Of a DNA stretch of 64,000 bases, positions 2 to 31,101 are shown one piece after another (within the stretch, counting starts at the first letter, position 1; every line of letters starts with the position of its first letter). The position numbers and the translations under genes are program-made. The DNA comes from Bosea beijingensis (GTDB lineage Bacteria; Pseudomonadota; Alphaproteobacteria; Rhizobiales; Beijerinckiaceae): assembly GCF_030758975.1 (NCBI RefSeq), contig NZ_CP132359.1, positions 4,192,307 to 4,256,306 on the forward strand. The letters are read 5' to 3'. A model generated the notes under the pieces. It was not told where the DNA came from and did not search any database. It saw nothing but the letters and a program-made list of their open reading frames with translations.

Positions 2-316
2 GGGCTGGGCTCCGTCGTCGGCGAGGTAGCCCGCTTGCCCATGACAGCGTCGCGTCGCCTTCAGCTCGCCGCGGAGGGCACAGGAGCGATCGGCATTGCG
101 CTGCGACGATGGCGACGCGAGGTCGACGCCTCTGATTTTGGCCAGCCCACGGCGGCGATGACCCGATGGCGGATCTCGGTGCTTCCATCGACAGCGCTGC
201 CGGTGCCGGGGGTAGGGCGGTCACGCTGGCTTGTTGAATTGATTAGGGCCCGGGCAGGCGAAAGCGCGGATTTTGAGTTGGAGGCATGCGATGACACGGG
301 TCGTCTCGGTCTTCCT
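2..316 (+). CDS. imuA: ImuA-like protein, C-terminal fragment cut by window edge
   Basis: ImuA is a RecA-like accessory protein of the SOS mutasome (imuA-imuB-dnaE2) in many alphaproteobacteria. The frame that enters from the left edge reads VVGEVARL, then TASRRLQLAAEG, then TAAMTRWRISVLPS, then GVGRSRWLVELIRAR. This order of motifs is what I know from ImuA C-termini. The recognisable part ends near 316 with GRLGLP, but no stop follows: the frame stays open to 751, some 300 bases into the opposite-strand binding-protein gene. The usual downstream imuB and dnaE2 are absent. The gene may therefore be a remnant, or may have lost its proper end. The N-terminal part lies outside the window. Confidence 0.6.
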
Positions 317-416
317 CAGCGCAAATCGAAACATCAAAGGCCCTCCCAAGCCTCAGTGCGTCCGAGCATCTTCGTTTCTCCGAACCAGCGTCCGCTTCGT
401 TCGAACATGCTCAAAG

Positions 417-442
417 CCGGCCCCGCCGGGTGGCGGAGCCGG
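417..442 (-). terminator. Hairpin after the first binding-protein gene
   Basis: An 11-bp stem (417-427 with 432-442, one G-T pair, loop GGGT) lies just past the stop of the minus-strand gene ending at 451. On the minus strand it is followed by CTTTGAG, so the T-run is weak. It sits between two convergent coding regions. Confidence 0.45.
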
Positions 443-450
443 AAACCGCC

Positions 451-1992
451 TCACTTCGCGACGCTGACTTCCCAGAGGCGCAATTGGGATGCCCAGGGTG
501 TCACGCCGCTCACCTTCTTGGAATGGGCGATGATGTCGAGGTCGTTATGGGTGAAGATGCTCGGGACCTCGTTGATGAAGCGCTTGTTCAGCTCGTCGAA
601 AATCTTCTGGCGCTCAGTGGTATCGGTCACCACCATCGACTTCTGGATCAGGGCGAGCGCCTCCGGCTCTTCCCAGATCTTGCGCGGCTGCTTGTCCTTC
701 GGGCCGGCAATCTGCTCGAATCCGAGCGCGGGGTCGAAGCGGCTCGAATAGGAGAAGGACTGCATCTGGTAGTTGCCCTTGTTGTAGCGATCGAGCTGCG
801 TCGCCCATTCAAGGACCTCGATCTCGGCATTGATGCCGACCGCCTGCATCATCGCCTGGGCGATGACGGCGGTGTTGAAGCTCGGCACCGACGAGCGCTT
901 GTTGGCGAGGATCACGATCTTCTCGCCCTTGTAGCCGGCCTTCTGCAGTAGCGCCTTGGCGGCGGCGGGGTCGTATTTGAAGCCCTGCTTCTCGACATCG
1001 CCATAGTATTTCGAGGTCGTGTACACCGGCGAGTTGTTGGGTTTGCCAAGGCCGTTCGAGACATTGGCGACGAGCTCGGGGAAGTCGATCGCGGCGGCGA
1101 TCGCCTGGCGCAGGGCCTGGTTCTTCATCACCGGGTCACGCGTCTGGATGATCAGGCTGTGCCGGACGGGGTTCGGGGCGATCGCGAGGGTCAGGTTCTG
1201 AGCATTCTTGAGATCGGGAACGTCCGATTCCGGCATCAGTGCCATGTCGAGCGAGCCCGCGAGCAGGCCGGCCTTCACCGTCGCCGCGTCAGGGATGACC
1301 ATGAAGCGGGCTTCCTTCACCAGCGGGCGCTTCGAGCCGATATAGCCATCGCGCTTGTCACCCTTGGGCGAGACATACTGGTCGAAGGCGAGAAGCTGGA
1401 CCGATTGGGCGCGCTTCCACTCGCCGAGCATGAAGGGGCCGGTGCCGATCGGCTTGTCCCAACTGCCATCGGCCTTGACCGAGTCCTTGTGAAGCACGGC
1501 GGTGCCGCCGCAATCGGCGCGGGCGAGCGAGTCGAGAAAGAGGCCGTTGGGCTCGTTGATCTCCATCACGACCGTGTCGGCATCGGGGGCGGTGGCCTTC
1601 TCGACCTTGAGGCCGTTGCGGCCGTCGAAATCGGAGATGCAGCGCCAGTCGGTCTTCGGATCCATGTAGCGGTTCCAGCTCCACAGCACGTCGGCCGAGG
1701 TCATGGTCGCGCCATTGTGGAACTTCACGCCCTTGCGCAGGCGGAAGGTGTAGGTCTTGCCGTCAGGCGAGATATCGACCTTCTCGGCGAGCAGCGGGCC
1801 GACGGAGCCGTCCTCGGCATAGCCGACGAGGCCCTCGACCATGTGCAGCACGACGGAATCGGTGTTGCCGTCGCGGTTCACGCCCGGATTGGTCGAGCGG
1901 ATGTCGGCGTTGAGCACGGCCGTCAGCGTCTGGGCCTGCAGGGCGCCGGCCGAGAGGGCCAGTGCGGTGGCGGAGACAAGGAAGCGCTTCAT
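451..1992 (-). CDS. ABC transporter substrate-binding protein, family 5 (SBP1)
   Basis: A periplasmic solute-binding protein of the DppA/OppA class (513 aa), expected to deliver peptides or similar solutes to an ABC importer. Residues 1-20 form a Sec signal peptide ending ALQA. The mature protein has the family-5 landmarks VEGLVGY, a central PDGKTYTFRLRKGVKFHNG, and WNRYMDPKTDWRC. Cys residues in DWRC and ARADC are shared by all three paralogues in the window and may form a disulfide. The start has AGGGG eight bases upstream. It follows an alpha/beta hydrolase gene on the same strand (30-bp gap), so the two are probably cotranscribed. No permease or ATPase gene is nearby. Confidence 0.9.
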   Translation of the reverse strand: MKRFLVSATALALSAGALQAQTLTAVLNADIRSTNPGVNRDGNTDSVVLHMVEGLVGYAEDGSVGPLLAEKVDISPDGKTYTFRLRKGVKFHNGATMTSADVLWSWNRYMDPKTDWRCISDFDGRNGLKVEKATAPDADTVVMEINEPNGLFLDSLARADCGGTAVLHKDSVKADGSWDKPIGTGPFMLGEWKRAQSVQLLAFDQYVSPKGDKRDGYIGSKRPLVKEARFMVIPDAATVKAGLLAGSLDMALMPESDVPDLKNAQNLTLAIAPNPVRHSLIIQTRDPVMKNQALRQAIAAAIDFPELVANVSNGLGKPNNSPVYTTSKYYGDVEKQGFKYDPAAAKALLQKAGYKGEKIVILANKRSSVPSFNTAVIAQAMMQAVGINAEIEVLEWATQLDRYNKGNYQMQSFSYSSRFDPALGFEQIAGPKDKQPRKIWEEPEALALIQKSMVVTDTTERQKIFDELNKRFINEVPSIFTHNDLDIIAHSKKVSGVTPWASQLRLWEVSVAK

Positions 1993-26984: not shown

Positions 26985-27172
26985 GTTCCATCCCCCAGGC
27001 CGCATCGAGGCAGCGTCCCTCCTGTTGGAGCGGCGTTCGCGGCGGCGGTCAACCGCCACTCCGAGCCGATGAAGCGCGGGTGGGCTGCATGCGGCGCATC
27101 GCCCCGCCGGGGAACCGCGGCCGCTGCCGACGGGTTGCCTCCGCTGATCCGCATCGACCGAGGGGGAAGATC

Positions 27173-28267
27173 ATGGCCACGGCGACCGCCGAGACGTCAC
27201 GCAGCGCGACCAAGGCCGCGACCGGGCCGCATGGTGCCGCAGAGCTGCCCTCCGTCGTGGTCACCAGCTACAATCTGGAGGTCCGTGACGATGACGGCTT
27301 CGTCGGCGACAAGGCGAGCCGCGGCGCCTTCATCGAGCATCTCGACGCATTGCGCAGCCATCTCAAGCGCAACGGCGACGATCCGCTCGAGGGCAAGACC
27401 GCCGAGATCAGCAAGAAGGAGCTCGATGCGCTGATCAAGGACGGCGATGCGAAAGAGGCCGCATTGGTGCTCAGCGCCGTCGAAGGCTTCGCTCAGTCGC
27501 TGGCCTTCGTCATCCGCCGGTTCGCGCGATTGAAGAGCTGGGCGGAGATCGAGCGCATCGTCGTGGGTGGAGGCTTCCGCGAGAGCCGGGTCGGCGAGCT
27601 CGCCATTGCGCGCGCCGCCATCATCCTGCGCACCGACGGGCGCGACCTCGATCTCGTGCCCGTCAGCCACCACCCCGACGAGGCCGGGCTGGTCGGCAGT
27701 GCCCATCTCGCGCCGAAATGGATCTTCGAGGCCTATGACAGCCTCGTCGCCGTCGATATCGGCGGCTCGAACATCCGCGCCGGCATCGTCGAGCTCCGGC
27801 AGAAGAAGGTTCCGGACCTGAGCAAGGCGCGGGTCTGGAAATCCGACCTTTGGCGCCATGCCGACGAGGAGCCCAGCCGCGACGAGGCGATCAAGCGACT
27901 GGGCAAGATGCTGCGCGAGCAGATCGGCAACGCGGAGAAGGAGGGCTTGCGCGTGGCGCCCTTCATCGGCGTCGGCTGTCCCGGCTTGATCCAGCCGGAC
28001 GGCGCGATCGATCGCGGGGCGCAGAACCTGCCCGGCAATTGGGAAAGCAGCCGCTTCAATCTCGTCGACAGCATCCGCGACCTCGTGCCGGAGATCGGCG
28101 AGCACGAGACCGAAGTGGTGATGCACAATGATGCGGTGATCCAGGGCCTGAGCGAGATGCCGGCGATGCAGGATGTCGCGAACTGGGCGGTACTGACCAT
28201 CGGTACCGGCCTTGGCAATGCGAGCTATCACAACCGCGCCAAGGCGAGGAGCAAGGAGCGGGCTTGA
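27173..28267 (+). CDS. ROK-type sugar kinase-like protein with permuted domain order
   Basis: A 364-aa cytoplasmic protein. All landmarks of a ROK kinase are present, but in the wrong order. The part that ends a normal ROK protein comes first: IERIVVGGGF (GGG at 132-134) and DEAGLVGSAHLA (169-180). The part that begins one follows: AVDIGGSNIRAG (193-204), GVGCPGLIQ (267-273), NLPGNW (285-290), MHND (317-320, catalytic Asp320) and IGTGLGN (343-349), near the C-terminus. No zinc-binding CxCGxxGCxE motif is seen. AGGGGGAAG precedes the start. The simplest reading is a circular permutation. Activity and substrate are unknown. Confidence 0.75.
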   Translation: MATATAETSRSATKAATGPHGAAELPSVVVTSYNLEVRDDDGFVGDKASRGAFIEHLDALRSHLKRNGDDPLEGKTAEISKKELDALIKDGDAKEAALVLSAVEGFAQSLAFVIRRFARLKSWAEIERIVVGGGFRESRVGELAIARAAIILRTDGRDLDLVPVSHHPDEAGLVGSAHLAPKWIFEAYDSLVAVDIGGSNIRAGIVELRQKKVPDLSKARVWKSDLWRHADEEPSRDEAIKRLGKMLREQIGNAEKEGLRVAPFIGVGCPGLIQPDGAIDRGAQNLPGNWESSRFNLVDSIRDLVPEIGEHETEVVMHNDAVIQGLSEMPAMQDVANWAVLTIGTGLGNASYHNRAKARSKERA

Positions 28268-28356: not shown

Positions 28357-28479
28357 CATCCGCAAGCCCGGGAGCCCTCCGTGCCGGCCGAATCCCGCTC
28401 TTCATCTTGCCTTGCGCGCATGGCTGTGCCGAGGGTCGAGCCGGAGCCGAATCACCTGGACGGGCAGGGCCGCATCCCC

Positions 28480-31101
28480 ATGACAACGCGCAGGACGCGA
28501 GCGTCGTTTTCGAGCCTGAGGGGCTTCCTGGCACTCTGCCTGATGCTCGTCGCCATGGCTTTTGCCGTGGCCGGCACATCCCTGGCGCAAACCGCGGCGG
28601 AGCCGGGCAGCCTTCGCGCCCGGCTGGATGGCGTCCGCGCCGATCTCGCCCAGATCGAAACGACGATGGCCTCGCCCAGCCCGAGCGACGCCGAATTGCA
28701 GCGGCAGCGCCTGCGCCTGCAGCCCTCGCTCGATCAATTGCGCCTGATCATCGACGAGCAGACGCCACGCGTCGATCAGGCCAAGCTCCGGCTCGAGCAA
28801 CTCGGTCCCAAGCCCGAAGCCAGTGCCCCGGCCGAGAGCGCCGAGATCACGCGCGACCGCGAGGCGCGGGCCAAGGCCTTCGCCGATGCGGACGAGACGC
28901 TGAAGCTCGCCAAGGCCTCGCTGCTCCAGGCGGAGCAATTGCAGAGCAGCATCGGCGACAAGCGTCGGGAAATCTTTGCGAGGGAGCTGTTCGCCGCCGG
29001 TCCATCCGTGGCGAATCCGGAGGTCTGGGGCAACGCGATCGCGACGGCGCCCGAAGACCTGCGCGCCTCCGGCTATATCTTCGGCGGCTGGCTGGAGGGC
29101 GTCCGCGACGCCTTCTCCGGCACGCGCGGGGCCGTGGTCGCCTTCGCCCTGATGGGCGCGATCCTGCTCTACGTCGCGCGGGCGCGCTATCTGCCGCGCT
29201 TCAAGGCGCGCTTCAGCCACACGCAGGACACCGGCAACCTGCACTGCCTCTATGTCGCGCTTGCCCATATCATAGCCGGTGCGGCGCCGCCGGTGCTGGC
29301 GAGCTGGCTGATCTACAAGGCCCTCAACACGACGGGGCTGCTGCCGCCGCGCATCCAGCCGGTGATCTGGGCGGTGGTCGTCGGTCTCGCCTTCTTCGCC
29401 TTCGTGCAGGCGCTGGCCGATGCGCTGTTCGCGCCGTCGAGTCCGCAGCGTCGTCTCGTCAAGGTGATGGATACGACCGCGCGCAGCGTCGTCTGGATCG
29501 CAAGCTCGCTCGCGGCGGTGATGTCCGTCGGCAAGGTCTTCGAGGCCTGGCTGCAGGCCATCGCCGCGGGCCTTGCCATCTCGATCATCGTGAAGGCGTT
29601 CTTCGCCATCCTGTTCGCGCTCGCCCTGATCGCCGGGCTCTACCAGATCCGCGATGACGAAGAGGTCGAGGAGGAGGCCTGTCTCGGCCCCTATGTCCCG
29701 GTGGACGGTGCGAGTCTGGGGCCGGTGCGCATCCTCGGCTGGATCATCGGCTTCTCGATCATCGCCGCGACTCTCGGTGGCTATGTCATCTTCGCCGCCT
29801 TCCTGGCCGAGCAGGCGCTCTGGGTCGGTATCGTCGCCTGCCTGTTCCTGCTGGTCTTCCAGTTCATCGATCTCGGCATTCCCCGCCTGTTCGGCGGCAA
29901 GGGCCGTTTCGCGCTGACGCTCAAGGCCGGCATGGGCCTGCGGAGCGCGACGCTCGACAAGATCTCGGTCATCGGCGTCGGCATGCTGAAGCTCCTGCTG
30001 ATCGCGGTGACGCTGCTGCTCGTGCTCGCGCCCTGGGGGCTGGAATCGAGCGATTTCCTGGTGTCGCTGCGGGCCGCCTTCTTCGGTTTCCAGGTCGGCG
30101 GCGTCACGGTCTCGCTCTCGACCATCGTCGTCGGCGCGATCGTCTTCGCGATCGGCATCGGCGCGACGCGGGCGATGCAGCGCTGGCTCGAGAACCAGTT
30201 TCTGCCGACGACGGCGCTCGACCCGGGTCTGCGCAACTCGATCACCACGGCGGCCGGCTATATCGGCTATATCGCGGCGGCGGCGATCACGGTCACGGCG
30301 GTGGGCCTCAGCCTGGAGCGCCTGACGCTGGTGGCGTCGGCGCTGTCGGTCGGTATCGGTTTCGGCCTGCAATCGGTCGTGTCGAACTTCGTCTCGGGCC
30401 TGATCCTGCTCTGGGAGCGTCCGATCCGGGTCGGCGACCAGGTGCTGGTCGGCGATATCGAGGGCATCGTCAAGCGCATCAACGTCCGCTCGACGGAGAT
30501 CGCGACCTTCGACCGGGCGACGGTGATCGTCCCGAACTCGAACCTGATCTCGGGTGTGGTGCGCAACCGCGTCCGCAACGACCGGACCGGGCGCGTGCTG
30601 ATCGCGCTTACCGTACCGCGCTCGCTCGATGCCGGCCAGGTCAGGGCGATGCTGTCCGAAGTCGCCTCGAACCATGGCGACGTCATGCAGAAGCCGCCGC
30701 CGGCGGTGATGTTCAAGAAGCTCGGCACCACGACGATGGATTTCGAGCTGATTTGCGTGGTCGGCGATGTCGAGATCACCGGACGGGTCAACAGCGACCT
30801 GAATTTCGCGATCCACAAGCGCCTCGCCGAAATGGAGCCGGCTGCTCCGGTTCCGGAGCTGATGGTGCGCGGGCTCGAGGGCGTCGAGCATTCGCTCGGC
30901 AGCATCGCCGACGCCGTTGGACAGCGCGACGGTGGGCGCAGCCGCACGAAGCGGGACGTGCCGAAACCGGCTCCGGCCGCGTCGGCACGCCGCGCGCGCA
31001 AGCCGGTCGTGGCGGAGGAGCCCGAGGAGGAAGAGGCCGAGGCCAACAAGCCCGCTTCCGCCCCGGCGCCCGAGCCGGCCAAGGATGACAGCAAGGAATG
31101 A
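28480..31101 (+). CDS. Mechanosensitive channel protein, DUF3772-MscS
   Basis: An 873-aa MscS-superfamily channel of the large type. A signal peptide or first membrane helix at 10-32 is followed by a periplasmic DUF3772 region rich in coiled coil (about 35-190, RARLDGVRADLAQIE, LKLAKASLLQAEQLQ). About ten membrane segments follow, then the pore and beta domain (SVGIGFGLQSVVSNFVSGLILLWERPIRVGD in two joined parts, then IVKRINVRSTEI, and IVPNSNLISG). The C-terminal tail is Pro/Glu-rich. It protects the cell from osmotic downshock. The start at 28480 was chosen for the signal; an upstream in-frame ATG at 28381 is possible. Confidence 0.88.
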   Translation: MTTRRTRASFSSLRGFLALCLMLVAMAFAVAGTSLAQTAAEPGSLRARLDGVRADLAQIETTMASPSPSDAELQRQRLRLQPSLDQLRLIIDEQTPRVDQAKLRLEQLGPKPEASAPAESAEITRDREARAKAFADADETLKLAKASLLQAEQLQSSIGDKRREIFARELFAAGPSVANPEVWGNAIATAPEDLRASGYIFGGWLEGVRDAFSGTRGAVVAFALMGAILLYVARARYLPRFKARFSHTQDTGNLHCLYVALAHIIAGAAPPVLASWLIYKALNTTGLLPPRIQPVIWAVVVGLAFFAFVQALADALFAPSSPQRRLVKVMDTTARSVVWIASSLAAVMSVGKVFEAWLQAIAAGLAISIIVKAFFAILFALALIAGLYQIRDDEEVEEEACLGPYVPVDGASLGPVRILGWIIGFSIIAATLGGYVIFAAFLAEQALWVGIVACLFLLVFQFIDLGIPRLFGGKGRFALTLKAGMGLRSATLDKISVIGVGMLKLLLIAVTLLLVLAPWGLESSDFLVSLRAAFFGFQVGGVTVSLSTIVVGAIVFAIGIGATRAMQRWLENQFLPTTALDPGLRNSITTAAGYIGYIAAAAITVTAVGLSLERLTLVASALSVGIGFGLQSVVSNFVSGLILLWERPIRVGDQVLVGDIEGIVKRINVRSTEIATFDRATVIVPNSNLISGVVRNRVRNDRTGRVLIALTVPRSLDAGQVRAMLSEVASNHGDVMQKPPPAVMFKKLGTTTMDFELICVVGDVEITGRVNSDLNFAIHKRLAEMEPAAPVPELMVRGLEGVEHSLGSIADAVGQRDGGRSRTKRDVPKPAPAASARRARKPVVAEEPEEEEAEANKPASAPAPEPAKDDSKE

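Follow-up and report, generated by a model that had tools for sequence, protein, structure and literature searches.

A Bosea beijingensis gene predicted to encode a circularly permuted ROK-fold kinase

How a protein can carry the signature motifs of the ROK sugar kinases in interchanged order is the question raised by an open reading frame of Bosea beijingensis. It is located within a stretch of 64,000 nucleotides (assembly GCF_030758975.1, contig NZ_CP132359.1, positions 4,192,307 to 4,256,306), hereafter referred to as the window, where it starts with an ATG at position 27173, extends on the forward strand to position 28267 and comprises 364 codons plus a stop codon. The initial annotation of the window had noticed GGG and DEAGLVGSA ahead of DIGGSN, CPG, HND and GTGLG and ascribed this order to a circular permutation; all of these motifs are present at the residues given in Table 1. 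Circular permutation is known from many protein folds. With a probability of roughly 0.8 we consider the gene to encode a circularly permuted, ATP-dependent kinase of the ROK fold, its kinase activity being predicted.

Compared in its native order with the Pfam ROK profile (PF00480), the Bosea protein scores 37.5 bits (E = 2.5e-9; curated cut-off 22.9) in two stretches, the better of which aligns residues 192-354 to profile positions 2-141 of 294. The best stretches obtained without rotation cover only these positions of the Pfam profile and positions 1-137 of TIGR00744, and residues 102-180 match positions 210-286 of 288 of the NanK model NF047821 (E = 0.0037, far under the curated cut-off). 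Upon rotation, one single stretch spans positions 2-292 of the Pfam profile (38.1 bits) and 1-311 of 318 of TIGR00744 (31.5 bits), while shuffling the N-terminal part within the rotated protein leaves 25.5 and 20.5 bits, respectively. A rotation scan of 12 single sequences against a hidden Markov model built from 32 ROK proteins of the class left the halves separate (set A1 comprises 12 of the 14 matches of the class search, L009 and the fragment L014 being excluded). Since rotation improves the HMMER score only slightly over that of the unrotated protein, the test was repeated by comparing profile with profile.

In the first HHalign comparison, 39 of 92 family sequences, a motif filter having removed 53 of 80 loci, were aligned to 32 ROK sequences. 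Two blocks in swapped order resulted (scores of 55.3 and 41.6; boundaries in Table 1), which are replaced by a single block of 284 columns with a score of 78.6 when the family is rotated. Five versions with a shuffled N-terminal half did not exceed 22.1 and a reversed one scored 15.1. The second comparison comprised 113 rows, i.e. the 92 earlier sequences and 21 partly hand-picked loci; two genes are contained twice (L006/L136 and L011/L143), leaving 111 distinct sequences over residues 20-355. Among 28 rotation points, a start at residue 183 gives the highest single-block score, 89.1 as against 55.0 without rotation, with 291 columns spanning ROK positions 5-299; a start at residue 187 scores 88.9. 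On its own, the N-terminal half scores 53.8 to 54.9 against the ROK profile and aligns where expected. As 50 versions of it with shuffled columns reach at most 21.1 (mean 14.0; at most 47.1 when joined to the real C-terminal half), its likeness to ROK proteins exceeds chance.

The order of the motifs was classified as permuted if GGG precedes DxGG and none follows GTGxG, in sets which overlap and contain close relatives. It is permuted in 119 of 121 proteins, namely the Bosea protein and the 120 relatives listed for it (one mixed, one incomplete), in 112 of the 113 aligned family rows (one mixed) and in 119 of the 120 relatives listed for the query L146 (one incomplete). An ordinary ROK protein from the same genome has listed relatives of canonical order in 119 of 120 cases (one incomplete), and 20 of the 32 reference ROKs are canonical, 12 being incomplete. 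According to a passage in PMC5458393, ROK proteins feature an N-terminal DxGxT motif and a strictly conserved catalytic aspartate. In the family, DxGG[TS] is present in 112 of 113 rows, in the Bosea protein at residue 195 and hence past mid-chain, whereas N319 and the putative catalytic D320 are retained in all 111 distinct members. Both parts of the protein are, judged by HHalign, homologous to the PF00480 profile, and a single rotation merges the two swapped matches into a collinear one over the full length, as is characteristic of a circular permutant.

The AlphaFold2 model of the whole protein has a predicted local distance difference test score of 86.8 and a predicted template modelling score of 0.84. 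In the VIA-align list of this model the first 23 rows can be assigned, by title or otherwise, to ROK kinases or repressors, all of them aligned to the second half. For a model of the N-terminal half, ROK proteins, assigned in the same way, occupy the first six Foldseek rows and the first nine VIA-align rows. Foldseek, queried with the whole model, places human hexokinase 2 first. In VIA-align, two-domain hexokinases align over the boundary between their repeats (2nzt_A, 39..330 to 288..668, 245 residues, root mean square deviation 33.3), as might be anticipated for a permuted single domain. The proposed permutation is backed by sequence profiles and, with each half taken separately, by structure models. 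Also the new ends, suspected between GTGxG and the zinc site, are placed there by HHalign, in the very region where the alignment is least sure.

Invariant in all distinct members, down to 45% identity, are the residues marked accordingly in Table 1 together with R202 and the extension of GTGLG to GTGLGNA (344-350). Since the ATP-site and HND motifs are invariant, ATP binding and a catalytic aspartate would be expected. As stated in a passage of PMC5458393, the ROK signatures further include the sugar-contacting ExGH and the cysteine-rich zinc motif CxCGxxGCx(E/D); in GNE, two sugar-binding residues sit within the latter, according to a section of PMC2742894. The zinc motif is found in none of the 113 family rows as opposed to 119 of 120 ordinary ROKs. 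ExGH occurs in a single family row (EHGH in L031), although this strict pattern also misses 119 of the 120 ordinary ROKs; a looser pattern, [ED]x[GA]H, is found in all 120 of these, and its matches in the relatives lie almost all at other positions. In the HHalign alignment of the rotated family the missing motifs would fall, with low confidence, close to the present break of the chain. There, an N-terminal stretch is well conserved (H20 in 109, G21 in 110, L25 in 111, P26 in 108, N34 in 106, E36 in 105, F43 in 109, G45 in 111 and D46 in 110 of 111 members), which, going by its conservation, may rebuild the substrate site. As to the requirement for zinc, the passages in PMC5458393 point both ways, as Fusobacterium nucleatum NanK is described to lack the zinc site yet to retain the other structural features of activity, while Bacillus subtilis glucokinase is reported to be inactivated by cysteine mutation.

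Taken together, the chain would begin within the large lobe, close to the canonical sugar/zinc loop, and continue with the canonical C-terminal part including GGG and DEAGL. A short linker, about residues 179-190, would then bridge the old C- and N-terminus, followed by the canonical N-terminal part, and the chain would stop just after GTGLG. The secondary structure of the model suggests that the small lobe forms one continuous stretch, the large lobe being split; in F. nucleatum NanK, a passage in PMC5458393 assigns residues 1-118 plus 272-291 to the N-terminal domain and 126-268 to the other. ATP would be held between the lobes with D320 acting as catalytic base, and the N-terminal HGxxLPSV..N.E..D..GF.GD would replace ExGH and the zinc loop in a rebuilt substrate site, the substrate probably being a hexose or an amino sugar. 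Rather doubtful, in our view, is the more far-reaching idea that the permutation broke a ROK chain within its sugar/zinc loop, with a substrate site now assembled from both ends, and gave rise to a separate kinase family whose new substrate site is independent of zinc and which has spread through alpha- and gammaproteobacteria.

As an alternative, a truncated ROK domain (residues 187-364) might have been fused to an unrelated N-terminal domain in which GGG and DEAGL arose by chance. The N-terminal half is indeed only faintly recognised in single-sequence and HMMER searches (E = 0.045 with NF047821), Pfam assigns to it nothing but FGGY_C with an E-value of 0.2, and its profile retrieves from the PDB sequences, with a best E-value of 0.43, Escherichia coli NanK, which aligns at the expected place (positions 221-286 of 289). 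Yet, with the HHalign scores given above set against shuffled columns which stay at or below 22.1 in 55 trials, and with ROK proteins as its top structural matches, such a fusion is very unlikely. That the gene is an artefact of assembly or a one-off oddity of the Bosea genome, for which no support was found, can virtually be dismissed in view of relatives that match over nearly their full length in 38 of 297 genomes of the order, in named records and outside the class, and of a ratio of nonsynonymous to synonymous substitution rates (dN/dS) well under 1.

More serious, though still improbable, is a permuted ROK fold without catalytic activity, serving as a sensor or regulator which binds ATP or a sugar phosphate in the manner of a ROK repressor devoid of its DNA-binding domain. 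The loss of ExGH and of the zinc motif would be in keeping with this role, as would the presence of a Glk-type glucokinase and of two full-length ordinary ROK matches, one with a winged-helix part, in the same genome (5.56 Mb, single contig). Furthermore, the neighbouring genes give no clue to the function, and no sugar-catabolic cluster was recognised among them, although no family library was searched with them. It is the invariance of HND and of the phosphate motifs in all distinct members which speaks for a permuted kinase instead; besides, Pfam lists no helix-turn-helix, and F. nucleatum NanK, in the passage cited, keeps the other structural features of activity despite being zinc-less.

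ROK sugar kinases (PF00480; glucokinase of TIGR00744, NanK) share with the Bosea protein the two-lobed fold, DxGG[TS], CPG, ND, GTGxG, GGG and DEAGL, whereas in the Bosea protein the order of the two parts is swapped and ExGH and CxCGxxGC are absent. Among PDB sequences, polyphosphate/ATP glucomannokinase (1woq, NF045942) is matched best in a single-sequence search, with an alignment to the second half (E = 4.4e-4); it differs in its canonical order and its length of about 250-270 residues; two short ROK proteins which we take to be of the glucomannokinase type lack the Cys motif as well. The zinc motif is likewise absent from F. nucleatum NanK (5nck) and similar zinc-less ROK kinases; this NanK, however, aligns from its first residue onwards to the second half of the Bosea protein and retains ExGH according to a passage in PMC5458393. 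Hexokinases, MreB, pantothenate kinases and other actin-fold (ASKHA) proteins possess the same broad fold and appear in the structure lists, in those of VIA-align below the first ROK rows. In the literature covered, which leaves out most subscription journals, no permuted ROK kinase was found by title or abstract opening, and the passages of PMC2213659 and PMC1079889 retrieved are not about such proteins.

The initial annotation had suspected a widespread family that went unnoticed as permuted, and its members do occur in several genera of Hyphomicrobiales and beyond the rhizobia. Protein searches found it in 12 of 289 genomes of the class and in 40 of 297 of the order (38 near full length); as the genome draws favour relatives, counts of carrier genomes are not rates. 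The 398 genomes drawn for the phylum include 55 with a match, which in 33 is confined to residues 173-352, as would be expected of ordinary ROKs; the other 22 have near-full-length members, and five of these genomes lie outside the class. Named records among the matches listed belong to Bosea, Bradyrhizobium, Afipia, Rhodopseudomonas, Nitrobacter and Tardiphaga or, for the query L146, to Pseudoxanthomonas, Luteimonas, Lysobacter and Stenotrophomonas; the Hyphomicrobiales locus set holds 80 of at least 572 confirmed loci. The nearest database relatives are at most 93% identical, the named ones being mostly Bosea. Solely fragments are present in G515 (C1:11004-11360, C7:38758-39022) and G512 (C36:101474-101659), possibly decayed copies or the result of contig breaks.

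Relatives are labelled as ROK family protein, predicted NBD/HSP70 family sugar kinase, hypothetical protein or, in places, glucokinase. Some relatives of the Bosea query and many of the L146 query carry no precomputed Pfam domain, so that kinase counts based on domains may miss them. A whole-genome search with PF00480 misses the permuted gene, although the protein itself exceeds the Pfam cut-off. A permutation common to diverged relatives in two bacterial classes, yet labelled as ordinary, hypothetical or domain-less, offers a natural test of how far chain order matters in an actin-fold kinase. The break is situated by the loop with which ordinary ROKs hold sugar and zinc, and the rearrangement could illustrate how an enzyme is rewired in nature and still kept intact.

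An unpermuted close relative did not stand out in 240 genomes of the class searched with the rotated protein; nine genomes with strong matches each show two swapped blocks, the rest (to E = 0.1) being short and weak. Partial Pfam ROK matches in G066 and G060 turned out to be short proteins of canonical order and not permuted relatives, and that in G070, with an additional N-terminal part, resembles a ROK regulator. L131 (251 residues) and L132 (262 residues), short and canonically ordered ROK proteins lacking the zinc Cys motif, are by our own reading similar to polyphosphate glucokinases. Against 13 Bosea-type relatives, picked from the 80 loci, dN/dS amounts to 0.05-0.24 for the whole gene, 0.04-0.32 for the N-terminal and 0.06-0.23 for the C-terminal half, so that purifying selection acts on both halves; given a paralogue in the genome, strict orthology of all 13 is not assured. 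This paralogue (L013, G000:C1:4986284-4987321) is a second near-full-length permuted copy with 69% identity, and G456 and G479 hold two such copies each.

Table 1. Features of the permuted ROK gene; positions refer to the window
Feature	Position	Strand	Basis
Whole gene, predicted circularly permuted ROK-fold protein	27173..28267	+	open frame; dN/dS
Purine-rich GAGGGGGAAG upstream of ATG, possible ribosome-binding site	27160..27169	+	read from sequence
Residues 20-49, HGAxxLPSV..N.E..D..GF.GD.AS	27230..27319	+	HHalign of rotated family (low confidence); conservation
Residues 72-178, ROK profile 200-299 (canonical C-terminal part)	27386..27706	+	HHalign score 55.3, E = 5.5e-7
GGG 132-134, motif of canonical C-terminal part	27566..27574	+	111/111 distinct members
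DEAGLVGSA 169-177, motif of canonical C-terminal part	27677..27703	+	D169, L173, G175 in 111/111
Residues 189-347, ROK profile 5-139 (canonical N-terminal part)	27737..28213	+	HHalign score 41.6
DIGGSN 195-200, DxGxT-type nucleotide (phosphate) motif	27755..27772	+	D195, G197, G198, N200 in 111/111
CPG 269-271	27977..27985	+	111/111 distinct members
QNLPGNW 284-290	28022..28042	+	Q284 to G288 and W290 in 111/111
HND 318-320, D320 expected catalytic Asp	28124..28132	+	111/111; role from a passage in PMC5458393
GTGLG 344-348, second phosphate motif, now near C-terminus	28202..28216	+	111/111

Whether the permuted protein replaces the usual glucokinase was considered by comparing 53 genomes picked from the searches of the order and the phylum, 30 with the family (of the 40 matching in the order, 10 being omitted) and 23 without. 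Neither a Glk match nor a ROK match better than E = 1e-5 is present in four of the 30 carriers (G456, G479, G501 and G521, all of family f193) and in none of the 23 non-carriers (Fisher p = 0.12), which gives a hint only; in G462, Glk is absent and the ROK match is no more than partial (E = 1.4e-14).

With respect to the surroundings of the gene, 52 of 54 loci which are not Bosea-like possess on the other strand a gene which, by eye and without a family search, we take to encode ribosomal protein L21 and which starts at a median of 0.8 kb upstream; it is found in none of the 27 Bosea-like loci, the window included. Directly after the permuted gene, the window contains an open frame of 906 residues (28381-31101, forward strand), presumably a mechanosensitive channel of the MscS/MscK type, which according to clustering recurs within the flanks of 15 of the 27 Bosea-like loci and of none of the 54 others.
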